Assembly: GCA_950295325.1 (NCBI GenBank) | Contig: OX485804.1 | Span: 8,926,001 to 8,990,000, forward strand | Length of the DNA stretch: 64,000 bases | From: Polytrichum commune | Taxonomy: Eukaryota; Streptophyta; Polytrichopsida; Polytrichales; Polytrichaceae | Direction: 5' to 3' | Shown: positions 270-64,000 of the stretch, piece after piece | How positions within the stretch are numbered: the stretch's first letter is position 1 | Layout of the letters: each line of letters starts with the position of its first letter | Program-made: the position numbers and the translations under genes | The notes under the pieces: model-generated | Databases searched by the model: none | Told to the model about the DNA's origin: nothing | The model's input: the letters and a program-made list of their open reading frames with translations, nothing else

Positions 270-512
270 TCAGCTAGTTGCATCGTTTGATCCTTTAAAT
301 TTAACTCTAACAGTGCCATCTTCACTTTTGTCTCTGTTGAAGTGTAGGTCAACTTCAAAGTGTTTGGTTTTGTCATGGAATACTAGAGTCTTCGAAACCT
401 TGATGGAACTCTGATTATCGCACCAGAGGGTAGTGGGTTTCCCATCACCAAACCCTAGTTCAAATACTAGTCTTCTTATCCATATGGCTTCCTTGATGGG
501 TGGACTCTTCAT
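270..512 (-). pseudogene. Copia RNase H, C-terminal part
   Basis: The minus-strand frame contains KEAIWIRRLVFELGF, then WCDNQSSIKVSKTLVFHDKT and a KHFEVDLHFNRDK motif, which is the standard end of Copia RNase H (CDNQSAI, NPVFHDRTKHIE). The upstream half of the domain lies at about 1200-1330 and is separated by an insertion. The frame is open across these 80 codons but has no start of its own and belongs to a dead element. Confidence 0.88.
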
Positions 513-1200
513 TGGAAACCTAAATGATGTGTGTGGGTCACTATAAAATGAAACCCCCTATAAACAACAAGTTTATAACGAAAAACAAATAAATATGTAC
601 TAACGGTAGCCTAGAAAATGGATTCATGGATTTTTACTAAGCTTCTTAATTCAATATGATAAATGCCTTCACTATACATGAAAAATACATCAGAGGTTAA
701 AGAAGCCCTTATTACATATAAAATCCATTGTCACTTTTCTATGAGAAAATCATGGAATATTTTTTCATCCATTGCATGCAACCCAACGATTGCATCACAC
801 AAACAAAGACAAGAGCACTATAACTTAGTCACGACCTAGAGAGCAAAACTCAAAGGAACCCACGAATGCTCCAAGAGCCTCTAGTTGTAAAAACCTAGAA
901 CTTAAATGCAAACCCTAACAAGGATGGATATGGTAATCATTACTTAATGACAAATACGGATGAAAAGGTGATATGGATGAAACTCATACATATAGTATTG
1001 TCAAATTATTCTGTAAACCTTAGGGCCCCCATTTGTACATCTACCTTTCCTTCAAGATTCTTAATAGCCTTTCTTAAATGTACACACTAGTAAAAAAAAA
1101 TAGTACCTTTCCCTTGTGTATACTATGTACACTAACACATCAAATAATACCTCTTCTTACACTTAAGTTTGTTCATACGTGGTATGAAGAGTCCACTCCT
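495..1200. mobile_element. TIR element inserted in the Copia RNase H
   Basis: The two halves of RNase H are held apart by this ~700-bp block. Its ends read GGGTGGACTCTTCAT (about 496-510) and the reverse complement of GAGTGGACTCTTCAT (about 1184-1198), so it looks like a DNA element with ~15-base inverted termini. The right ~180 bases (1020-1200, with AAATGTACACA and TATACTATGTACACTAA) recur at about 32570-32720 and 46890-47030, which makes it a dispersed family. No ORF of note. Target duplication was not resolved. Confidence 0.55.
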
Positions 1201-1330
1201 TGGGATGGTTACACATGTAGCTGGTGCAAAAGCACGGTACTCGGATTCACAATAAGAGCAGGAGACAAAGTTTTGGTTCTTGTTACACCAAGAAATGGGG
1301 TAACTCCCCATTACAAAGTGGTAGGCTTAA
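1200..1330 (-). pseudogene. Copia RNase H, N-terminal part
   Basis: The minus strand reads about PISWCNKNQNFVSCSYCESE followed by YRAF, matching the Copia consensus ISWSSKKQ..VALSS.EAEYRA. The frame then breaks at the inserted element and resumes at 512 with KEAIWIRRL. Plainly part of the same decayed element. Confidence 0.75.
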
Positions 1331-1334
1331 GTTG

Positions 1335-2420
1335 ACGTGCGATCGTCGAAGTTGCCATCATATTCCATCTTGGAGTATCTAGCCGGTGTAGTATCCTTCC
1401 CCTTTGAGAATTAAAGACCAATGGATGGATGTTTCCACAAGCAATGAAGCACAAAGAGGGCGGCATCAAAATGAAGTTGTTGAAGGTGATGCATAAATCG
1501 GCTGAGAATAGAAATGGCATAGCCAATTTCCTAATGGGATTTGGTAAGATAGTTATGCTCCCTAACTAAGTGTTGTTATTTCTAGGGGTCAAAGAGAGGC
1601 GTGCCGGTACCCTTGCTAAGTTTGATAGGGTCAAAAAGGGGTTCATGGGCAAGTTTAACGTCAAGCAACTGATATTCAATTAGAAGAGAGAGAGAGGACG
1701 TATGCATTTTGATGGACGAGAATGCATGAAGTTGTCTAAAGAAATTGGACACCCAAGAATTTTTGGAGTGGATCAAAGTCCATCATTTTAATATCGAATA
1801 TGAAGTTGGGTCTTGAGGTTGCAAAAACCGTGAATAAAATACCTTGTGATATAGAGGTCACCAACATACAAAATTAAGATAATGATTTGTCCATGTTGTG
1901 TGTGAAAGTAGATGATGGAATCAACGGCTTTCTTTTTAGGCCCCATCGTAGTAAGTCCAAGCTAATGCGCTCATACTAGGTGCAGGGGCTCTGCCTAAGC
2001 CGTAGAGCGAATGGTTGAGCTTGTAGACAAGATGTTCAATGCTCATGTGAACACAACTAGGGGGTCGAAGCATGAAAAATGGCTTTGTGTACAAGCATCC
2101 ATACAAGAAAGCAGTGGCGACATCCATGTGATGTATTGGCCAACCGTGAAAAGCCGCAAGGGCAGTAATAATTTGAATGGATTCCCACCGGACAGTGGGA
2201 GCAAAAGTTTCTTGGAAGTCCACCATGTAGACATGCTAGAACCTTCTAGCAACTATTTGGGCTTTGTACCTAGGGGGCTCACCATTGAGCCCTAGCTTGA
2301 TTTTGTATACTCAATGAGCTATTTTAAGAACAATACCAAGAGGTTTGGGGACAAAAGTCCAAGTGTCATTGGCAAGAATAACATTGTATTCTATGGCCAT
2401 GGTTGATATGTTGTATTTTC
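1335..2420 (-). pseudogene. Copia reverse transcriptase, frameshifted
   Basis: From 2420 downward the minus strand gives WTFVPKPLG, then PRYKAQIVARRF, then DFQETFAPTVRWESIQI and HHMDVATAFLYG, the start of Copia RT (W.lv..P.g, YKARLVAKGF, DY.ETFAPV, LDV..AFL.G), ending with YKLNHSLYGL (consensus L.KSLYGLKQ). Below 1936 the remainder of RT is recognisable only as scattered blocks in several frames with many stops. Non-functional. Confidence 0.82.
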
Positions 2421-2655
2421 CCATTGAGAAATTTAATGGCAATGTTCTCAATGTGGTTATAGAATGACAGACTGGTGATTTTTGTGTCATTACTTGGTTG
2501 TATTGAAGAAGAACTAAAGGGTTTCTAGAGACATGATATAGGCACCTGAATCTAAGTACGAAGAAGGCGAAGACTTTGATTCTACTGCATTTACTTTAGC
2601 AAAGCATGCTTCAAGAACCTAGGAGGCTAAATTATGTTAATATGGAATTTCCCCA

Positions 2656-3360
2656 TCATGGTAGCGGCCAAGGTATTTTTTGACACTGTTGACATGGCCA
2701 TCGAGTTGGGGTCTTGTATGACAACAAGGCTTCGCTATCCTTCTTGACCTCGCCGTTTTGAACTCTCAGTGACATTTCCTCATTGAGAGAATGCATCTCA
2801 ACCTCATGATAGCTTGGAAGTTTCTCATTCAAAATCATAGATTTTATGACATCATATTCTTTGGGGAGGTTTCTAACTATAACCCATACTACTATGTCTT
2901 CTAGCAAGTAGACATTGACATCCTCTAAGACATTGGCGGTTTCCTTCATATTAATCAAGTAATCATCCATACTAACTAAAGGTAGTTTCTTATTGCCAAA
3001 GAACTTGTCAATCAAGTGTACCTTATGGGGATTGTTGTCAGCTTCATATCATGCCTTTAGGTGGGACCAACATGCATGTGGGCCATGACATTGTTTCATG
3101 ATGTGGAGTGCATTGTGCTTGGAGTTGTTGTTTAGGACACTCATAACAAAAATTTGTGTCTTCTGATCAACTTCCAACTGTGGCACTTCTGAGAGTGGTG
3201 TAAAACACCACTTGAATAAACCATTTATTTTGAGAATGTTTTGCATACAAAAAGACCATACTCCGTAGTTTGCTATGCCTACAAGGTGGTATGACCCAGG
3301 AAATTGTAGATATGTTGTTCTAGAAGGGTGTATAATACATGCAAGATCTGGAAAATGCAC
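2656..3360 (-). pseudogene. Copia gag (UBN2-type), two frames
   Basis: Two adjoining minus-strand frames make up the gag. 3360-3049 includes NYGVWSFCMQNILKINGLFK (typical NY..W...M...L...GLW) and HIMKQCHGPHACWSHLKA (A...A...W..L). 3015-2656 includes MDDYLINMKETANVL and VIVRNLPKEYD with SMILNEKLPSYHEVEMHSLN, the usual UBN2 pattern (LL.sLP.sy...v..l.......l...l...L). The zinc knuckle that should follow is absent because of the internal deletion. Confidence 0.85.
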
Positions 3361-3538
3361 ATGGTTTGTGAGGCACTCATTGTAAAGTTAGGTGGTGTTG
3401 GTGTTATTGGTGCATTAGGCACTGTGGGGGTCCTATCTTGACTTAAGAGAGTGTTGCTGCTAGTAGTTTCATAATTTGAGCATGTCATGATAGGCTAAGA
3501 AGAGATTTACCTACGAGGCTTACAGTCCGTGAGGACGA

Positions 3539-19321: not shown

Positions 19322-29872
<10,551 letters not shown>

Positions 29873-38774: not shown

Positions 38775-41700
38775 TCATGATTTCCCACTCAACAACGGCT
38801 CCGAGAGATTGTTGCTTGTTCCATAGGTACCTAAATGATCAAGTCTGGCCTCCTTTTCAGCTTGCCGGTATCTATGGACTGCATGTTGTCCTTGTTTTGA
38901 TAATTGCTGCAAGGTTGTGAACAAACAGTTAACACAGATGCAATAAACTAATTCATAACCCCACCTAATTAAACATTGGATGTTCAGTATTTAGCCCAGT
39001 TCAGTGGACATGGTTAGACAGGAAGCCCAACAGTATACTTACAAAGCTTAATGATTCCAAGCTATTTAATAATACTTTTTGATTATGTAAAATTTCTGTT
39101 CAACTACGCAACTAACTATTTTCTGTTGGTTCTCACATTGACGTCTTTGTCAGCACTGGTTTCATCTTTGTTCTCAAAGAGAAATTCCTGGCCATAACAA
39201 GCCCCCAAAAACCAGACACAAGGAGTATTCATTCTGCTACTCCTAAACGGATGAACATCTGACACCCTGTCATATCAAAATTTCTGATCCTTAATGTACA
39301 ACAATCTGAAGTACAAAGCTAGTCATCTTTAGCCTCAAGAAGACACCTTTTTCCATCACATCAATACCTCGTGGCAAAGTGGGACAAATAATGAGAATCT
39401 GCTAGATGATGAAATTATATATTCATCAAAGTATCAAATCTAAAGATAGATAGATATTTTTGCATGTATACAGGAATTTAGAAAATTTGGTATTTACAGT
39501 TTCCATTCTCCATAAGTTACTGTGCTAATATATAGGTGGCCCAATAAGTGTGTTAAAACCAAGAATAATATTCTTGAAGTACATTACCTGATTCCGTAGA
39601 GAGCCAACCCGACGAACCAGTGAACCACCTCTCATCATTTGTGCTGCTGCAGCTGCCACTCGTACCCTGAACTCAAACGAAACAATCAGCTTACATGATC
39701 AACCAATACATGGAGGTGACTTCAAGCCATAAAAAATTAATTGCTGAATAGGAAGAGAGATCTACACTATTACACGTGTAACATATAGTTGGTCAGTGTC
39801 CAGGGAGGTTTTTGGGCATAATTGGTCAAGATCCTAGTGTTTCCAAGACCAACTGATGGCATACTGACATCTTTCGGGTTTTCTTTATTGAATTGAGGAA
39901 TATTCTGTCCATTCCTCTAAATAGAACAGTAATTTTCCTGAACTCCTGGATTTGACCAGTTATTTTACAATCTCAACCGGTTCATCTGTAACTAGCAGTC
40001 GGTCTCCCTGTTCATTGTAATTGGTGCATTTCCCATCAGGAATTCCACCAGTGCATGAAGATTTTTGATACAGCAGATTAAATATATTTGATGCACTTAG
40101 GAATTCCGGATATTGCATCTATGACTTTTTTTTCTCTTTTAGACATTAACATGTCTAAGATGTATAAGCATCCATATAGGGAAAGTCCAAAAATTGCAAG
40201 AGTACTCTGAACTTACTTGTTATGTACATCAATGTATTCATCTGTCTCATCCACGATCTCCTCCTGTAAAAAAGATAAAAGAGGAACACATCAATTGGCA
40301 GCGAGTTCACAAACCAAATAACACAAAATCCTGGTCACCACCAATGTTGGTCTGGTATATAGGTGAATGCATGGTATTGATAATGAATACCAATAATGAT
40401 ATTAAAACACCTACCCAAGGGTATCAAATTGTAATACTAGCCAAATATTAGTATTTGGTGAGTATGTCAAGATGAAAAAATCTTTGTATACCCAAGTTAT
40501 TATTTGGGTCAATAACATTCTAAATCATGTTGATACTAGGGTGCTTTTGCCTAGGTATCAAGATTCTTGCATGGTATATAGACCTGAATGGTATCAAAAA
40601 CAAAATTACCATCAAATACCCATACCTTACTGGTATCAAAAAATGTAAAAAATCCTCATTGTAGATACCCGAATGGTATTGGACAAAGATGATACCAGAC
40701 CAACATTGATCAGCACCATACCCCTATATCATTTGCATCATTGCAATGCAAATAAGCCCCAATATTGCCTACATTCTACAAGTTGCCTTCAAGATGCTAT
40801 CGAATGAGGTAAGAAAAGAATGTGCCAACAACATACACACCATCTCACAAGTATTAGAAAACCAAAATACAATAAAAGACTTGAGAAAACTCTTTTTAGC
40901 TCACTTGCAGAAGCTCCTCCATTACATCTTCCAAAGTAATAATCCCAATAACTTCTCCTTCTTCAAGATCATTTTCTTCCACCAATTCCTCCTTTTTGAT
41001 CCTCATCTCTGCTTGTTCATCACCATTTTCGTCGCCATTGGATTCACCCCTCTCCAAATCCGCTTCATCGTGAACCTCCGATACTTCAGGCAAGCCATTT
41101 GAGTTTTCAGATTGAGGAGGATCACTTTGTTTCTTTGCATTCTTTACTTTTGTAACTGCTGCCATGTGACTCCCACCCTTCTGGAACTCATTCAGTATGT
41201 CATATAATGGCATGTCACTAGGCACTCTGAATCACCAGAAACACCAAACCATTGATATAATCAGAAATTTTGTATCTTTCAGCCTTTACCATAACCTTCA
41301 TCGATCCACCATCATAACTATAACCCAACTTTGGAACAAAACCATCGAAACAGGGAAATACTAGATAGGGTAATGAAGTTCTCCTTTAACTCAACATGAC
41401 TTTTGGTCAGGAGTTGGTTGACCTGCATACATACCTTCCATTTCAGGTAAGTTTGTGGTGCACGCTTGGAGATAGTGTGGAGGTTTGAGCAAAGACCATT
41501 CAATATCAGTTCAGTGAGGATCAAACTCATTTGGCATGCCAAGAGGTGCTAAAAGGAGTTTGGCCTTTGATGAACCAAAATAGGTGGCTCTTCATTCAAA
41601 TTCAAACACTACCTACACGCATGCACCACAAAAGACAAGAAACTATTGATATTTTATGCAAAATACCAATGAACATCATAGGGGATCAACTCCTGACGAA

Positions 41701-44664
41701 GAGTTCCATTGAATTGAAGGATAACTCCATGGGATGCTTCAAATTTCTCAGTATCCACATGACATGTATAAGTGGATGGAATCCCCTCTCCTGAAAACCT
41801 CATTTACAATGTACCCAAATTGATTAGCAAGCCTATGAAATGCTCTACACACTGGTAAGATATAGCAGCAGGTACTAACTAACCTTGGTATTCTTCTTAT
41901 AGAAACAGCACTAACAGGGGTCTCAGCCTCAGCACGGACTGTGAGCAAACTTTTCACCTGCATATAATTGTAAAATACTAGTGAGACGAAGTATCCATGT
42001 TGTAACTGACTATCACAAATAGCCAAGATAGAAGATATAAATGTGTATGAATCTATAAACAATACATATGTAACCTATCATTCCAACTCCTAAATAATCA
42101 TAAATTACCAGTAAGACGCCAATGAGGTTGCGGGGGTTTCCGTCATAAACAGGAACGCGACTATGTCCACGGGCCATTATTTTCCCCAATGCCTCCCTGC
42201 ACAAACACAAGAAATACTTAATACATATATAAAATAATGCAGTGCAAAAATTCATGAACATAAAAGGTGGAGTAAAGATATAAAAAGGTTATTATTCATG
42301 ATTAGCATTTAAGCATGACAAAACGTCCTCCCATCCTTGTGAATGAGAAGGAGACTGCCCAATGTACTTGCAAGGTACAGCAAAAAGGTAAAACTGCAAA
42401 GGCTTTTAAATAATGAGCAAAATACCAGTCCAGCTTGGAATTGACATCCAGTGAAAAAGTTGACTCAATTGGTGTCATGGAATCCAACGCAGTCTGAAAT
42501 AGTTAATAGTAACAAGAGCATCAGTAAGGATTGTTTGTTGTTTTCACCTTGGACGCCCATATCAATGTAGTTTAATATGTAGCATTACCACATGTCCTAA
42601 TTTTGATATTGATGAATATGAGAAATACAAAGAGGACCAATTTTACCTTCTCAGTGAGGTCTAATGCCCCTTGAATAATTGTTGTCTCGTCATGTGTTAG
42701 TTCCCCACCCTTGCCGGCCTACGATGAACACAACACAAAGATTACCACTGATTTAAGCATGAAATTTGACAACAAGTAAACACAAAACTGCTAATTTTTT
42801 TTAAATTCTTTCACAATTTTCATGAGGTCTATCTTCCTGTGATACCTCTTTCCCATGAATTGAAACTAGCGCCTTTAGTTGTGCCCGCCTGAACAGTGCC
42901 GAGTCGTTGTGCCCCAATAAATGGTCCAGTATCTGCAATTTACAAAAATGATGATACAAAGTTCAAACATATAGACTCAAAGTTCTCACTTCTTTCTTCA
43001 AGAACATTTGCTGCAAAATTTTCATTGAACTGTTTGACATGTAACAACTGCCTTCAAAGGGTAAAGGTAAAAGAAGAGCACCTTTCCAACAGGATAGGAG
43101 ACTGGCCAGCATATCACCATAAGGATTTTTACCAACCATATCAAATTAGCACCAATAGCCAACCCATGTCTTGAGCAAACAGCTTGAGGAATAACCTGCA
43201 TTCAAAGGAGCTGCACCTGCTCAAACTTCACCATGCCCACAAAAATCTGATGCTAAAGCTGGTTGAGAACTCAAAAAAGATCTAATGACATTTTTCTCAT
43301 CTACTCACATTACTGTTCTTAACATCTATGTAAGCATATGCAATAAAGAAGTAGAACCATACCTCCCCGAAAGCGAGTACGAAAGTGACTGATAAAAGCA
43401 CAGCCACTACTTCATTGAACATGTCATCTAAAAATATTGGCAGGGCCTGCAAAAATGACAAATTCACAGAATACAGTAATTTGGAATAGGCTCATAAAAG
43501 ACATGCTTACTGAAATCGGAAATCCCGTAGACCCTAAAAGACATCATAGGCAGGACCAGAAATCAAAAGGCCTACTTACACTGAATTCATTAGGCACTGT
43601 GAAGCTAACCATTTCAGCATTCTAGGTAATCAGAGCAATATTTGCCACATATGTTCATTTCATCTGTTATTATTTTTCCAACTGACACCGGATGGTTATA
43701 TTAAGCACTTTCTCCTTCCCAGTTTTCTGGGTATTGGCACAAGGATTTCCTTAAGGGCAGAAAATTTGAGGACTCTTAAGTTAGAAGTGATGCCTACTTA
43801 CCTCCATTGCCGCTGCATTGCAAAGAAGCAATGTGACAAGGAGCTGATGTTGTTTTTGTACAACGGGTAAAATCTTACCTGCAAAAGAAATGCACAAAGG
43901 AATCAAGACACCTAAAATAAGAATTCTCTTTTGCAGACTCCCAGTGGTAGAATTCATCCATAACGTACTAAGCTTCACATCCACATGTAATAATCCTCTT
44001 TTACAGTATAATTTGAATCATGATAACAATATGGGCCACTTCATGCCAAATACCTTCGACTAAAGTTGTCGTTTAGCGTAGTGTCTTAGAAGAAATATCA
44101 GATATTGTGACATAAGATAGCCACGGTAGTTTTCAAAGACGACATATATACTGTCAGCATAGCTGCAAAATTGTTGGAACAACTTATGTACGTTACTTGG
44201 TCGATATTGTGTCAATATTCTACAACTCTTTTGTAGTTTCAGTTAATTCAATCCCATGCTCGCTTACAAAACTAGAGATCAGGGAGCCTCCTTAATAACC
44301 AACCTTACAAGCTCACATGAACGCATTCAATGTAAGTCGACAAGCTACAAGATCAAGAGCAAGGAGAGACGGAGAGACAGAAAGACAGATCAATGGAATT
44401 AAAAAATTAAAAAATTAAAAAACACATACTGGCTTGTTTCTTTTCCTCTTCGGAGCCACTTTGCTGAAGGACATCCAAATCCACCAATCCCAGCGACATG
44501 AGACCCAGGGTAAGGCCCGACATGATCCCCGCGAACAGAACCAAAAAGACAGAAATTCCAGCCGATATCCACCACCATGGCTGCCTGTAGTCGCTGGGAT
44601 CGCCTACTACAACATTCGATCGGACGGAGACCAGACCAATTCCCATAAGACTCCGAAGAAGCAT
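38775..44664 (-). CDS. DUF21 and CBS-pair membrane protein (CNNM-like), 492 aa
   Basis: Thirteen exons, given high to low: 44664-44430, 43878-43802, 43446-43363, 43195-43082, 42932-42846, 42718-42647, 42493-42426, 42196-42109, 41957-41884, 41226-40905, 40263-40217, 39666-39588, 38906-38775; all GT-AG, in phase, TGA stop. Residues ~30-200 are the four-helix DUF21/CNNM membrane domain ([44 protein letters not shown]). CBS1 is ~228-283 ([32 protein letters not shown]); CBS2 is ~300-407 and is split by a ~60-residue acidic insert (327-388). Length and order match Arabidopsis DUF21/CBSDUF proteins such as At4g14240. The family is related to CNNM/CorC proteins implicated in Mg2+ or other divalent-cation transport, with CBS domains as nucleotide sensors; substrate here is inferred. 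The in-frame start is the only ATG before the membrane domain. Confidence 0.95.
39775..40015 (-). repeat. Dispersed repeat family C in intron 11
   Basis: Reverse complement of the family copy at 4628-4880 (AACCGGTTGAGATTG, CAGGAAAATTAC, TTGGAAACACTAGGAT). It lies in intron 11 (39667-40216) of the CBS/DUF21 gene. Confidence 0.7.
40343..40708. mobile_element. ~366-bp TIR element in intron 10
   Basis: Left end AATGTTGGTCTGGTAT and right end ATACCAGACCAACATT are exact inverse copies. The interior repeats the word GGTATCAA/TTGATACC many times in both directions (e.g. AATGGTATC, GGTATCAAGATT), so it would fold extensively. It sits within intron 10 (40264-40904) of the CBS/DUF21 gene. Confidence 0.85.
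41365..41745. mobile_element. MITE family B copy in intron 9
   Basis: Left arm GTTCTCCTTTAACTCAACAT and the inverse of GAATTGAAGGATAACTCC at the right pair over about 45 bases. It aligns with the copies at 8172-8541 and 12745-13220 (GGTCAGGAGTTGGTTG, CATTCAAATTCAAACACTACC). Inside intron 9 (41227-41883) of the CBS/DUF21 gene. This copy has a single version of the arm that is triplicated at 12961-13196. Confidence 0.8.
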
Positions 44665-58070: not shown

Positions 58071-58711
58071 TGTTTTGGATTAAGAAATCATTTTGCCGAC
58101 TCCATTACTCTCACTAAAGGCTATTTCCAATGAAAGGTCTAACGTATTTAGGACTTGCTCTTTAATTATTCCCTCATGTGAGGATTTGCAAAGCTTATTA
58201 AGGGCCTATTTGCATGGTAAAAGGAAGGTACCCTATGATACCCATGCATGTCTTCTTGTTGAAAAGCGTTAGGCAAAGTATCTTAAAAGAACTTTGACAA
58301 GGTTTAAAATGCTACATCAATTTGTATTTAATTCAAAACTATGGCAAGTATATATGGATGAGGCCAGGCCACATGTATTCAAGAAGCTCACTTTGTCATC
58401 TCAAGTAATGATGAACTTCTCAGGGCAAGTAGCAAGAAGAAGAAAAACTTCGGTCTCCGGAGGAGACCGACGTGAATGAAGTGTCTGTTCGATCCTCCTC
58501 CAATCTGATGCCCACAGGACAAAGGTATGGAGGTAAAGATCTACTCCTCCCTTTCGAGAGTAGACACTATAGTCACCAGTTACTAGTAACAAGAACCAAA
58601 TGGTTAGTTTTTAGGGGGGGATTGTTAGTATGGTTTGGGTCCCCAAGTCTCTAGTGCATTTGTTGGTGGATGGAGTAGAGTGGCTTAGTTACCAAAGTTT
58701 TATGGCTTTGT

Positions 58712-59740
58712 CTATGGGGGGTCTAGTGTTTGGGGCAAGGGTTGGTGGTTTTCTATTCTTCTTTTGTGTAGGAGGATAGACATAGCATATTTAATAGCGA
58801 TAGTATTGATGTTTTTAAAAGTATTTTTAATGATAGGCATAGGTATTTTAAATTTATTTTCAAGTGATTTCATTGAAGGGATGTGTGTAGTGGCTCTAGC
58901 GCCTGCGGTGATTATAATAAGGGGGTCAACTTTCCATCCTTTAGCAGCAATACTATCGATTAATGGTTTATATTTGTTATTTTTTGCTTCGAGTGTTTCT
59001 GGAGAGAATCTATCATTACAGTATGTGAATTCGATGAATTGTATGGTGAGGTTGGGGTCCATGGTTGTGGGGGGGTCATTTTGGTACGGTAATCCTCTAA
59101 CACAGAGGATGTTAGGTCTAAATCTGGAGTTACAATGGCATCTTTGTGTACCGCATGTGCAAGGGAGTAGCCAATTGGGAACGGTGTTTTCCTGGGATGT
59201 ATTATTGAAGGTGCCTGCGTTCATGAGAATATAACATCTAGATTTTTCAGATGAGATGAGTAATTTCCTAATTTCCCATACAACTTTGTTGTGTCTTTTG
59301 ACGTGAAGTGAATGTATATGTTGTTGTTTACACGTAAGTAGTACATGAAACCACGTGTCCGGTTCGTATGAATTGCAAATGGGGCATGTGATAGAGGGAT
59401 ATGATTGTCTACCGAAGAACAATTGTTTTCGAGCATTGTCCATGTAGGTTCCTGTTCGGAATTTGATGAGGCATGATTTTTGTTTATCCGTGATTTCCGG
59501 GCTTTCCCATAATTCATTAGAAAGTTCTTTGTCTATATCTGCATTTCCTGTCCATTTGTAAGTGTTGGGGGTTTGTGTGGCCATGTTTTCGAAGTTGTTT
59601 TCCCTGTCGTATTTACTAATTTGTTTTTCTAGGGATCTAACAGGGCCTTTATCAGGAACGTCCATCATTGAGGCCCAGACGTTCTTTTGGTAGTAGTATG
59701 GGGTGACATGGGCATGTTCATATGGGTGAATAGCAATTCT
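58712..59740 (-). pseudogene. Restriction-like endonuclease (R2-type) region of the LINE
   Basis: After RNase H the frame gives CPICNSYEPDTWFHVLLTC (CCHC finger), then VKRHNKVV (the RHN motif), then RFRPNILCVRG (position of the K/RPD motif, with N for D), then FIEFTYCNDRF and EAKNNKYKPLID (position of the D/E and K catalytic residues), then GWKVDPLIIITAGARA. This order of CCHC, RHN, RPD and E...K is that of the C-terminal restriction-like nuclease of R2-group elements, which cuts target DNA for priming. The PD to PN change and an unusually long gap (about 25 residues) to the E may mean reduced activity or mutation. The frame is open for 416 codons from 59962. Confidence 0.72.
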
Positions 59741-60160
59741 GTGCTCTAGTTCTAGCCCTTCTTTTGCCAATTTGTCTGCTTGTTCGTTGCCGTTAATGTT
59801 GACGTGTGCTCTGACTTTGTATAGTGTGGTTGGTTGTGTACGGTTTTGAAGTAGTTGTGCCATGGTGGCGAGGGTGACTATTGTGAAGTGTGGGGTGTTT
59901 AATTTGTGTGTTGAGTAGGTATAATACATTGAGACTGTCGGTAAATATGTAGGCGGGTTCATTAGGATATAGTGTATTAATGATTGTTAGTGTTTCATGT
60001 ATGGCTATCATTTCTGCTCGTAGTATGTTTTGGAGTCCATGTAGTCTTTTGGAGATGTTAAGGCCTTTTGGGCTATAGATTCCATAGCCAGCCCTTTCTC
60101 TTCTCCATACTCCAGGGTTAATTTATTTGGGTTTCATAAAAGAACTGTCTGTATAGTAGC
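59740..60160 (-). pseudogene. RNase H domain of the LINE
   Basis: The four acidic positions are visible: FSYYTDSS (D), ILRAEMIAIHE (E), YIFTDSLNVLYLL (D), and VRAHVNINGNEQADKLAKEG (H and D). One TAA (60123-60125) follows the first motif and a one-base frameshift lies near 59890 between the third and fourth. Placed after the RT and PCIF1-like parts. Confidence 0.88.
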
Positions 60161-60439
60161 TGAATTGTGGATGGAATTTTAATGGTAAGTTGGTTTGGTA
60201 ATTAGGGAATTGTGGAATAAGTATGTTATTATTATTGGGGGTGTTTGGATAGTTAGATTTAGCCCATTTTTTGCTAGGGTTAACGGCGGTATTTAAGGGG
60301 GTGGGTGGTGCAATTTGTGTGTGAATTTGTAATATTTGGAGATTATTTGCTATGTTGACGAGTTGATTCATTTGTTCGTAGGTACCGATGTGATTGTTTT
60401 GGTGGTGGATACAGAATATTCGCAGTGTTGATAATTATT

Positions 60440-61180
60440 TTCTCGTGGTATTGAGTTCGGGGGGAATTATCGGTTCTTCGTATATGATGGTGTCTGCTGC
60501 AAAGTGGGCAATGATGTGTGTATCCAAGAATGGGCCAGTGTATGGGTTAAAGTTATGGTACCAATCCATATCTTTTGAGATAAGTATAGTGATTGTATTT
60601 GGGTCATTTTTGGCCGCAATGCGAGCCCAATGGATGGCTTGTTGTACGTCTGTTGCGTTATGGGGGTGGGCGTAACCAATTCCCTTCCATTTTTGGTCAA
60701 ATGTTTTTCCTAGGGATCCAAATATTCTATCCCTAGAGAATGGTGAGTGGAATTGGGTGAATTGTGTGGGGCAAGTAACTGGAACACCATATTCGTTATT
60801 TTGGGAGATTTCCAGTCTCCCAATTTGATGACAGTTTAGGTGGAGTTGACCTAAACTGTATTTTCCCAAAATCATGGAATTTTCCCATTATGATGAATAT
60901 GGTGTTCTGGGGATGAGAAGTATGAATGGTTGATATTAAATGACTTTATTAGGAAATCTAGTATTGGAGTTGGTATAGTATATTGGGCGCGTTTAAGTGG
61001 GTCATTTTTTGGAATACGGTATTTATACCTTTGGTATAGCCACACGATTTCAGTTTCAAATGATTGGGTAGGTGGTTCTAGACTATGTGGGGTATCTTTA
61101 GCTTGATGGTATTGTTTCCATAGCCACAATAATCTAGTTTTTGGGATGGTAATGAGGTGCCGGCCGTTGTCTTCATATAT
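60440..61180 (-). pseudogene. PCIF1-methyltransferase-like region of the LINE
   Basis: The frame reads EIVWLYQRYKYRIP, TIPTPILDFLIKSFNINHSY and FSSP, then after the MITE VTCPTQFTQFHSPFSRDRI, FGSLGKTFDQKWKGIGYAHP and ITILISKDMDW. This follows the PCIF1 pattern: L...FGV....FASPLNC, then FPD.D..FGS.G..F, then G.FEANPPF, then a strand with P.W. PCIF1 is the cap-adenosine N6 methyltransferase. The catalytic NPPF is replaced by HPHN, so methyl transfer is doubtful here. Assigned by motif order alone. Confidence 0.55.
60783..60906. mobile_element. 124-bp foldback MITE inside the LINE
   Basis: Ends AACACCATATTC and GAATATGGTGTT are exact inverse copies; the two ~60-base arms pair imperfectly around ACAGTTTAGGT/ACCTAAACTGT. 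CTGG lies directly outside both ends (60779-60782, 60907-60910). Leaving out the element and one CTGG makes the LINE frame continuous between the motifs SSP and VTCP, which confirms the boundaries. Confidence 0.92.
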
Positions 61181-61199
61181 GTGAGCGACGTCAAATTGT

Positions 61200-62155
61200 G
61201 TTTGGATAGTGTTAGTATTTGTTTCGATGTCACTCTTTGGGTTGCATTCATTTATGGAGATATGTGCCAATGGGATTATTGTGGCAGGGGTAACGTATCT
61301 GGTATCTCTTAGTTGTTCCGTGGAGAAGTATGCGTTGACGATATTTGTGAAGTATTTGTGTTGCCTTTTCGTATAATATTGGATAAGTAGTTCGGTGTTG
61401 TGGCAACTAGTATAGGCATCACAGTAGGGAAATAACTCTCTTTGGGTGCGCCATTTGTTGTATCTAGTATTATTTGTTGTAGTCCATTGGCAAAGGTATG
61501 ATGTGTCATTTCTTTTAATCCCGTTAGAATCTATGAGTTGTCTTTGTTTGTGGTCTAGTATTGTGTGTATAGGAAATTGACGGGGGTTGTTAAGCATATT
61601 GTTGGGAGGCGGGGGTAGGTGGGGGATAAGGGGGTTTGGGGGGTATATAGGGGGGGGGGTTGGGTGTTGAGGGAGGATGGTATGATTTATTATTGTGTAA
61701 TCATTCTTTAAGGTTCGTGGGGGGTAATGGTGTGGGCATGGTAGGTAGCATTCTTGGTGGCAGGAAGGGTGGCAAAATAATTGATTCGCGATGTTTAATG
61801 CATTTTTGATGAGTTTTGTAGGATTGGAGTGGTATATTTTAAAGTCGTCTGGGTTCATTAAGGTTATGCCATTGGGCATGATTATTTGTTCTAATTTTAT
61901 TATATTGTGCGATAGAAGTTTTTGTAATAATTTAAGTGAAGTGTTGGGGTTTAGGCCTTGTAGGTTTTGAGCTTCTTTCAACCATGCAGTTTCAAGTGTG
62001 GATGGGTTTAATAAGAAACAATTTATTGTACTTTTTAGGTGAACTCCTGCTTCATATTTAAGTAGGAATAGCGTTCTAGTGATAGGTGATCTAACACAAT
62101 GATGGTATTTAATGCGGGTTATTTCTCTGGAACCTCCAAATTTTGCAAGTATAAA
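61200..62155 (-). pseudogene. LINE linker with Cys/His cluster and chromo-like stretch
   Basis: Continuous with the RT frame apart from the TAA at 62156. It contains a Cys/His-dense piece (CHPSCHQECYLPCPHHYPP) that could bind zinc, a proline-rich stretch (about 61680-61590), and SYLCQWTTTNNTRYNKW, which faintly resembles a chromo-type fold (YLV.W.......W). Functions are not assignable from motifs alone. Confidence 0.6.
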
Positions 62156-63560
62156 TTATGTTAAGCCATGATAAATTTTTCCAAGTCTACCTTTGTCATT
62201 GAGGGAATTTTGTAGTTGTTCTCCGATACACCGCAAGTAGGCATTCTGTAGAGAGAATGCTTCAATTCCGAATAGATCATGTGGGAGTTGTGTAGCGATA
62301 TTAGATGTGTTTTTTGGTAATCCGCATATTGTTTTATGAAGTGCTATAATCTTCTTATCGAGTTTTTTGATAGCCGGAATAGAGTATGGTACTGCGTAAA
62401 AGCTGTGTGCTATATCAGCACGTATGACTGTGTCTGCCATGTTGATTTTTTGTTTCATGTTGGCTGGGCATGCTACAAGGGCTTGGCATTGTTTAATAAC
62501 TTTAGCTGTAGTGGTATTAATTTGTACTTTCCATTTAAGAGATGGTGCGAGATTGATTCCCAAGTATGTGTATGGTTCGTGTTGATCTAAGACTGGTAAT
62601 GGTTGGTTTCTATAGTTTATATTAGTGGATTGAATCAGGGCTTTGAATGTAATGGGGTTCATTTTGGATTTATTAGGGCATCCAGTCACTGTACACTTGG
62701 GTATTCCAAGGTCCATTCCCGCCCATTCGCAGAATTTGCCTAATTTATTTAGTTGTGTTTGTAATGATTTTAATTTATTGGCAATCGCTGCTAGATCATC
62801 GGCATATGCTGCGGATGTGATTTTAATTTTGGAGGTTCCAAAGGTATATCTGTTGTCACCTTGTTGTAACCATCTAAAGAGGGGTTCTAAGAATATTAAG
62901 AATAAGTAAGGGCTGAGAGTGTCTCCTTGTATTGTACCTCTTTGAATGAGGATGGGTAGGGTTTTGCCGAAGTATTCTCCAAGATATATAGTAGTGGATT
63001 GTGAGTATATATTACCGATGAGGTTTATTGCATCTATTGGGTATCCAAGGTCTTTCATTATGGCTAAGAGTCTTGCATGATCAATGGAACCGAAAGCGTT
63101 CTTGAAATCAATGTAGAGGATATATATATCTTGGTTCGTAAATCTTGCGTCTTCTAATACTGCAATGAGGAGTTGAAGTTGTCTAGATGTTCCTCTTTCT
63201 GCTCTGAATCCTTCTTGGCTATCATATAGTACTTGGTATCTTTCACCATAAGCTGAGAGAATAGATGTTAATGTGCTTGTGTATAGTTTGTATATGGTAT
63301 TAGCTAGTGCAATGGGTCTATAGTTAGTAAGTAGTGATGGATCACATTTTTGTATAGTAAAACCGTTAGACTAGTTTTCCAAGATGCAGGGATTTGTTTT
63401 TGTTTGTAGCAGTGTTTAAAGAATAGAAAGAATAGCTTGTGAAAACGTGGAGGCATATTCTTTAGGATTGAATTAGGAATTTTGTCTGGTCCTGGGGCTT
63501 TATTATTTCCTAGGTTTTTGAGGCAGAGGTCGTATGTTTCTTGGTCAAAGTATGTGTGGA
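62156..63560 (-). pseudogene. Reverse transcriptase of the LINE
   Basis: RT motifs appear in order: NNKAPGPDKIPNSIL, NYRPIALANTIYKLYTS, DSQEGFRAERGTS, LYIDFKNAFGSIDH (motif A, D), QGDTLSPYLFLIFLEP (motif B) and SAAYADDLAAI (motif C, YADD), followed by the thumb region. One frameshift near 63355 separates the first from the second motif. Catalytic aspartates are intact. Confidence 0.95.
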
Positions 63561-63621
63561 GGGGGGTTTGGGGTTCTCCCCGCTGTTCAATCGTGAATCC
63601 TTCTAAGTCGTGCCATGAATA

Positions 63622-63999
63622 TTACCTAACGCCACATGTGTAGTGTGGTGGGTGAATGTTATGATAGTAGCATGTGGGTATTGTTGGACGATTACTGATG
63701 GATTGTTGAATGTGTATTTCTTTTGCTATATCTTCAGGATTGGTTAGTATGTTATTTTGTCTATCCGTGATGGAGTCGAGGGGTGAGGTTTCGGAGTGCT
63801 TAAAGACTTTCCTATTTATATTTTTGGGACTTTTTTCATACATTTGGCGGTATTTTGATACGGCTTTAAGAATACAGTGTTTGGTGTATTTTGTGGTGAT
63901 TACTCTGGCTTCTTTATTGGAGGTTTTCGCGATAGCGGCTATGGTGTCAATCCATTCATTTGGGGAAGTGCTTGTTGTAGGTGGATGTGGAATTTGCAC
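63622..63999 (-). pseudogene. Pre-RT segment of the LINE
   Basis: An open frame of 125 codons that runs to the window edge, basic and without a recognised domain (AITKYTKHCILKAV-like pattern; NRKVFKHSE; PEDIAKEIH). The last part (ITDRQNNILTNPEDIAKEIH) is the helix that usually precedes the RT palm in LINEs. A frameshift joins it to the RT frame near 63620. Confidence 0.75.
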
Positions 64000-64000
64000 A

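Follow-up and report, generated by a model that had tools for sequence, protein, structure and literature searches.

A decayed non-LTR retrotransposon of the moss Polytrichum commune with two putative nucleases and PCIF1-like and chromodomain-like modules

The Dualen/RandI elements of Chlamydomonas and its relatives are LINEs (long interspersed nuclear elements, or non-long terminal repeat (non-LTR) retrotransposons) that combine an apurinic/apyrimidinic endonuclease-like (APE) domain and a restriction-like endonuclease (RLE) with reverse transcriptase (RT), RNase H and 3' tails made of repeats instead of poly(A); Dualen also encodes a cysteine protease. Elements of the R2 group (R2, Utopia, NeSL, HERO) have a CCHC + RHN + PD-E-K nuclease, are without APE and are mostly site-specific. 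Plant L1 LINEs have APE and RT, some of them RNase H, and no RLE. Here we describe an element on the minus strand of a 64,000-nucleotide stretch of Polytrichum commune (GenBank assembly GCA_950295325.1, contig OX485804.1, positions 8,926,001 to 8,990,000), called the window below. The element consists of genuine coding remnants of a single non-LTR retrotransposon, a decayed copy, and we think it rather likely that it derives from an abundant, recently active and autonomous plant family of Dualen/RandI-like, dual-nuclease architecture. The likeness is one of architecture and does not imply membership of that clade.

The architecture can be followed in related copies from the same plant genome (408 Mb in 64 contigs, seven of them chromosome-sized). 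The light-harvesting genes of this genome, and PDB matches in which 9vfj is followed by the moss entries 8htu and 7xqp, point to a moss. Six fetched copies have a single second open reading frame (ORF2) of 2372-2924 amino acids (aa), counted from stop to stop, and L003, L004, L006, L007, L008 and L065 present the same domain order in single long frames: 2A-like motif, APE, RT, chromodomain-like module, PCIF1-like module, RNase H, and zinc motif with RLE (Table 1). In Pfam, the single 2625-aa frame of L003 matches RVT_1 (E-value 2.3e-29), RNase_H (5e-13) and PCIF1_WW (5.3e-8; 33.1 bits for a cut-off of 31.1), while L065 matches RVT_1 (1.4e-32), RNase_H (1.3e-14) and, above its cut-off, Exo_endo_phos_2 (9.7e-8). 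A second clade (L064 and L065; RT identity 61-62%) has the same order, so the combination is no one-off fusion. The initial annotation of the window had proposed a minus-strand order of RT with YADD, PCIF1-like region, RNase H and CCHC-RHN-RPN-E/K; this order is present, all of it in one frame in L003. Missing from that annotation were the chromodomain-like module and the 2A motif, the latter lying outside the window.

The window copy itself is disrupted by several frame changes, stops and a 124-bp insertion, and for this reason its domains appear as weak pieces. RVT_1 is matched between 62156 and 63370 on the minus strand (E = 2.7e-28), with YADD; RNase H is split over two frames, just under its cut-off (2.7e-5 and 8.6e-5), and PF12237 over two broken frames, under its cut-off (0.008 and 0.07). 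The C-x2-C...H...C, RHN, RPN, E and K motifs lie on the minus strand within 58715-59986, RPN occupying the position of RPD or KPD in five aligned ORF2s. The annotated span, 58712-64000, does hold a minus-strand element; position 58712, however, is that of the stop codon, the 3' end lies near 58434, an approximate limit since it is the point where the match to the sister copy L002 stops, and the element runs past 64000. Beyond the window the same copy continues with most of its APE-like frame, recognised by eye from its relatives (C2:8990575-8991639; last part out of frame), a 2A motif (C2:8991847-8991876) and pieces of ORF1 to at least C2:8995114.

Table 1. Coordinates of the element in the window and of the modules in the L003 ORF2
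Feature	Reference	Position	Strand	Remark
3' half of frame-broken dual-nuclease non-LTR element	window	58434..64000	minus	reaches at least C2:8995114, ~5.1 kb beyond the window
3' untranslated region (UTR) with conserved structured tail and (CTT)n-type repeat at end	window	58434..58711	minus	end approximate
Zinc motif C-x2-C...H...C and restriction-like endonuclease (RHN, RPN for RPD, E, K)	window	58715..59371	minus	bounds projected from L003
RNase H domain, two frames, split near 59.9 kb	window	59717..60170	minus	bounds projected from L003
PCIF1-like module, HPHN replacing NPPF, insertion inside; probable pseudo-methyltransferase	window	60351..61108	minus	bounds projected from L003
124-bp insertion with 13-bp inverted ends, inside PCIF1-like module, foreign to element	window	60783..60906	minus	
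Chromodomain-like module (YLCQW...Y.KW..QREL)	window	61331..61597	minus	profile comparison
Reverse transcriptase core with YADD	window	62549..63346	minus	bounds projected from L003
APE-RT linker and RT start (NNKAPGPDKIPN)	window	63349..63993	minus	
2A motif	L003	277-285		
APE	L003	~504-760		
RT	L003	~1060-1400		
Cysteine cluster	L003	~1646-1657		clade A only
Chromodomain-like module	L003	1703-1792		
PCIF1-like module	L003	~1866-2075		
RNase H	L003	2139-2279		
Zinc motif and RLE	L003	2401-2625		

Our genome counts score the best candidates only and are thus lower bounds; individual PF12237 and 2A matches were not each assigned to such an element. With this reservation, the RNase H-RLE part was found in all 99 scored matches (of 6189 first-look candidates), and the chromodomain-like plus PCIF1-like segment of L065 in all 113 scored matches, some of them partial (of 2828 candidates). 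Proteins of L003 and L004 are 99.2% identical and those of L007 and L008 99.4%, and L065, of the second clade, has one further copy listed at 100% identity over 360 aa; such near-identical copies in both clades indicate that the family moved recently. As far as the genome sequence tells, it is abundant and recently active in its host. The L003 element is 12.0 kb long (C2:42781490-42793454) and bounded by an exact 12-bp repeat, TCCATTCTTAAC, a target duplication. Pairwise Nei-Gojobori ratios of non-synonymous to synonymous substitution (dN/dS), which are single-pair estimates, are for L003 and L007 0.069 in APE, 0.059 in RT, 0.044 in the chromodomain-like module, 0.121 in the PCIF1-like module, 0.049 in RNase H and 0.098 in RLE, with 0.51 in the region 5' of the 2A motif.

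How closely does this family resemble Dualen/RandI? The APE, RT and RLE motif residues are invariant in all five aligned ORF2s, each of which keeps RHN, PD, E and K, and RNase H exceeds its Pfam cut-off in the four copies scanned (L003, L065, L007, L064). The APE-like frame past the window and the invariant APE motifs of the five ORF2s together make the element a dual-nuclease one, in agreement with the earlier proposal of an RLE-bearing or dual-nuclease element in a land plant and with the suggestion to look for an APE domain beyond base 64000. RT and RNase H lie between the two nucleases, where the definition of Dualen/RandI places them, whereas the definition of the R2 group, with RLE as sole endonuclease, does not apply, APE being present too. 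The family differs from Dualen/RandI in its land plant host, its 2A-like peptide and the two modules, chromodomain-like and PCIF1-like, that stand between its RT and RNase H.

It is possible, although on balance we doubt it, that the family is an ordinary Dualen/RandI member and that the PCIF1-like and chromodomain-like modules were always there in such elements and never annotated. No protease family was matched in Pfam scans of the L003, L065 and L007 ORF2s and of three ORF1s (one partial), in contrast to the cysteine protease of Dualen, a result in which no match is not absence. For its part, the combination of APE and RLE defines Dualen; RNase H is reported from Dualen/RandI in sections of PMC4640811 and PMC3636483, and the 3' repeats of our family are not poly(A), as in eight of eight RandI families in a table of PMC3747384.

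The relationship of the PCIF1-like module to the cap-adenosine methyltransferase PCIF1/CAPAM is well supported as sequence, the shared part being the helical/methyltransferase region (PF12237). This family exceeded its curated cut-off in all 150 scored genome matches (of 698 candidates; best 55.6 bits) and is matched by each of the 14 aligned segments of our profile A1, which were chosen among 18 stop-free segments of more than 200 aa from 28 matching loci by omitting the near-duplicates L004, L008, L018 and L019. Against the PDB, A1 has three matches, of which the top two, both weak, are PCIF1 (E = 0.011 and 0.072); the second of these alignments sets AHPHN over ANPPF. The NPPF motif, needed for catalysis by PCIF1, is absent from all 29 distinct copies read (31 rows, the window, L001 and L005 being one locus). 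It is replaced by HPHN in 17 copies, HPHT in 6, HPPN in 2, HPYN in 2, HPKD in 1 and FPTD in 1, the last two being the only second-clade copies in the count. The module further differs from PCIF1/CAPAM in lying within a retrotransposon polyprotein and in the N-terminal WW domain, no WW family being matched in Pfam scans of L003, L065 and L007.

With NPPF missing in every copy read, the module is probably no methyltransferase and most likely a pseudo-methyltransferase. The methyltransferase-like fold of the initial annotation stands as a PF12237 match and is one predicted from profiles. The module is 63% identical between L003 and L006, and the dN/dS of 0.12 from the single pair L003 and L007 indicates purifying selection; a constrained domain whose active-site motif is lost and varying fits a role in binding or scaffolding.

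That the module is instead catalytically active as an adenine methyltransferase, through an altered motif (HPxN/FPTD), and marks the element's RNA or complementary DNA (cDNA), seems improbable to us. Its constraint is near that of other enzymatic parts (0.121 versus 0.049-0.098), it occurs in both clades, and methylase-bearing retrotransposons exist, such as the DNMT LINEs of Symbiodinium (PMC5890265, in part). The domain of SymbioLINE-Dnmt, also a LINE with a methyltransferase-family domain, is reported in the same parts of that paper to be under purifying selection, but it is a cytosine DNMT of an unrelated family and is linked to ORF1, whereas ours is PCIF1-like, lies in ORF2 and has lost NPPF. 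Unlike the invariant residues of APE, RT and RLE, NPPF is gone in 29 of 29 copies and its replacement varies, from HPHN to FPTD.

The chromodomain-like module was first spotted by eye (YLCQW...W..), and we regard the call as likely on the strength of profile comparisons. From 20 loci taken for this region, 19 gave a match, only partial in L032 and L045, and L029 gave none; the YLC(Q/R/E)W core is covered in 17. Profile A2 (11 rows) combines nine of these loci with L003 and L006, omitting L043 and rows with stops or with partial or gapped matches; profile A3 combines six of them with L003, L006, L007, L064 and L065. Compared by hhalign with ten typed chromodomains, the module scores E = 0.0019 with a probability of 14%. 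When 100-column windows were slid along the five-copy ORF2 alignment, the best four of 96, mutually overlapping, all fell on the module, the top one at E = 1.2e-4 and a probability of 55%. The real score of A3, 20.6, was not attained in any of 200 shuffles of its columns, which gave 17.3 at best. For the window's own copy, AF2 run on the single sequence modelled three strands then a helix, at low confidence (mean predicted local distance difference test score 53).

In chromodomains an aromatic cage binds methyl-lysine. Here the W of YLCQW is retained and the third cage position is non-aromatic in L003; as read from the alignment, the cage is not conserved. Retrotransposons with a chromodomain include the chromoviruses and the oomycete Chronos elements, which are LTR elements with a chromodomain adjoining the integrase, whereas our element is a LINE and its chromodomain-like module follows the RT.

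Chance similarity in an A/C-rich, biased protein could in principle explain both module matches: the coding strand is poor in G and T, which yields long chance frames, and several matches are individually weak. We hold this to be very improbable in view of the 150 of 150 scored PF12237 matches above cut-off, the chromodomain shuffles and sliding windows, and the purifying selection; for the PCIF1-like module it is already largely contradicted.

The RT bears sequence similarity to the R2 group. In a phmmer search of the PDB, the L003 ORF2 matches R2 at 2.7e-30 and no L1 at E-values up to 1, while the RT of L055, an L1-like element of that genome used as control, matches L1 (2.5e-48) ahead of R2 (2.5e-20). 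A tree of 13 RT rows, unrooted and without Dualen, Utopia or RTE, sets the element and R2 apart from moss and human L1 with support of 99/99. A profile search is less sharp, with R2 at 6.7e-41 and 3.3e-35 and L1 (5.2e-26) above R2Bm (3.2e-24). From these scores the RT would lie closer to R2, yet at no great distance from L1, as expected of an intermediate lineage. That the element is a plant L1 whose end regions are unrelated is largely contradicted by the R2-first matches, set against the control, and by the split in this small unrooted tree, and we reject it, even though flowering plants have L1 as their common LINE according to a table of PMC3747384 and L1-like elements are present in the host genome. 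Tails differ as well: plant L1 LINEs mostly end in poly(A) (224 of 233 flowering-plant L1 families in the same table).

The family does not end in poly(A). In five clade A copies, two of which (L003 and L004) are close relatives, the 3' terminus shares an RNA structure of 40 pairs with 97.5% of cells paired; repeats of the (CTAT)n or (CTT)n type come after it. Ten of the 40 pairs have changed on both sides, a result reached in none of 500 shuffles (4 of 500 for further pair types), and sliding the pairing partners abolishes the structure. Rfam gave no gathering-level match in the window, L003 or L066. A structured 3' UTR is also found in R2; in contrast to the mostly site-specific R2 group, 3' flanks vary here among copies, as judged by eye.

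GDIExNPGP followed directly by ATG has 207 exact matches in the genome and none in a reversed control; the 2A/StopGo core consensus is D(V/I)ExNPGP (PMC12846837, in part). The motif is conserved, and release activity is predicted from it. L064 carries the motif and the leader segment twice in tandem 5' of APE (positions 1-900, two NPGP motifs), and in the 5' part of the window element itself degenerate tandem repeats lie upstream of 2A (L005 7910-8304). Three ORF1s scanned, one of them partial, had no Pfam family above its cut-off. ORF1 appears to have been exchanged between lineages (L067 and L007 versus L065/L070 and L071): the L007 and L003 ORF2s are 86.5% identical, while the L007 ORF1 shares 50% identity with that of L065 and 31% with that of L004, which is nearly identical to L003. 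We set aside a fusion of ORF1 and ORF2 by frameshifting: the frames overlap in L003, L006 and L007, but the L065 ORF1 ends about 700 bases before ORF2 opens.

We propose that such an element would work as follows. ORF1 would supply an RNA-binding protein, and the conserved 2A-like motif would free an N-terminal leader from the enzyme during translation of ORF2. APE would nick the target and prime reverse transcription of the element RNA, which RT may recognise through the conserved 3' structure and repeat tail; RNase H would strip the RNA, and RLE would cut the second strand or resolve an integration intermediate, leaving a short target duplication such as the 12 bp seen in one copy. The chromodomain-like module would probably anchor the complex on chromatin. 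Having lost NPPF, the PCIF1-like module is probably a nucleic-acid-binding scaffold, perhaps for the cap or 5'-end adenosine.

A number of observations weigh against this account of an autonomous dual-nuclease element. The function of every module is deduced from sequence, and the PCIF1-like and chromodomain-like folds are predicted from profiles. The Pfam APE family is under its cut-off in L003 (E = 8.8e-4), and no APE family is matched in L007 at E-values up to 0.5, although in both the motifs align. The sole PDB match of the RLE profile is R2Bm at E = 0.53, and PCIF1_WW is below its cut-off in L065 (3e-6; 27.4 versus 31.1 bits). Pfam Chromo is the family hit by most A2 rows, yet by two of 11, below cut-off and at best at E = 0.021; in L065 it falls at the expected place with E = 0.12 and 12.8 bits for a cut-off of 25.1. 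A2 matched no PDB chain at E-values up to 10, and no chromodomain was named among the 50 listed of 744 Foldseek matches to the AF2 model, none of the 744 reaching E <=0.001. The chromodomain-like module is also the least conserved after 2A between L003 and L006 (38% identity, dN/dS 0.49, synonymous sites being near saturation in this pair). The 2A core deviates in two of the five aligned ORF2s, with K in L007 and H in L065 in place of E, and the same test found no target duplication for L004, the second copy tried.

A bolder proposal, which we offer tentatively and consider rather unlikely, is that a land-plant LINE lineage converted a cap methyltransferase of the PCIF1 type into a reader, no longer catalytic, of its own RNA's capped 5' end, and that one protein released at 2A unites this reader with two nucleases and a chromodomain-like reader. 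If so, a single polypeptide would check the completeness of the template, the chromatin site and both strand cuts. Under the preferred reading of a Dualen/RandI-like family, dual-nuclease (APE and RLE) LINEs, described from green algae in the literature excerpts used here, would extend to a land plant, in large numbers and with recent activity. To the question of what purpose such domains may have, a PCIF1-like pseudo-enzyme kept by purifying selection would offer another answer. Two questions would become testable: why both nucleases are retained in one element, and whether a fold of the cap-methyltransferase type can read an RNA 5' end in retrotransposition.

The initial annotation had considered the combination new or little described. 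The openly licensed literature, surveyed in part, yielded no description of PCIF1-like and chromodomain-like modules in LINEs, and the combination is likely, though not proven, to be new; excerpts of PMC6338049, PMC5348765, PMC4981915, PMC8226300 and PMC11550742 also entered the background. Among viral sequences (IMG/VR), 98, 48 and 116 stretches matched the pattern for the RT, RLE and PCIF1-like profiles, respectively, and none was confirmed; the same holds for 148 stretches matching the RT profile in prokaryotic GTDB contigs. Both searches are silent on other plants.

The insertion within the PCIF1-like region of the window copy is a small element resembling a miniature inverted-repeat transposable element. 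Its inverted ends are GAACACCATATTC and GAATATGGTGTTC, about 4 bases are duplicated, and it is absent from the sister copy L002. Elsewhere in the window, 273-3387, 28720-29869 and 40899-42288 hold, as judged by eye, Copia-type fragments, a plant receptor-kinase-like ORF and CBS/DUF21-like ORFs on the minus strand. Elsewhere in the genome, at G000:C5:1751760-1846160, 14 light-harvesting chlorophyll-binding genes with an identical profile score stand in an array.

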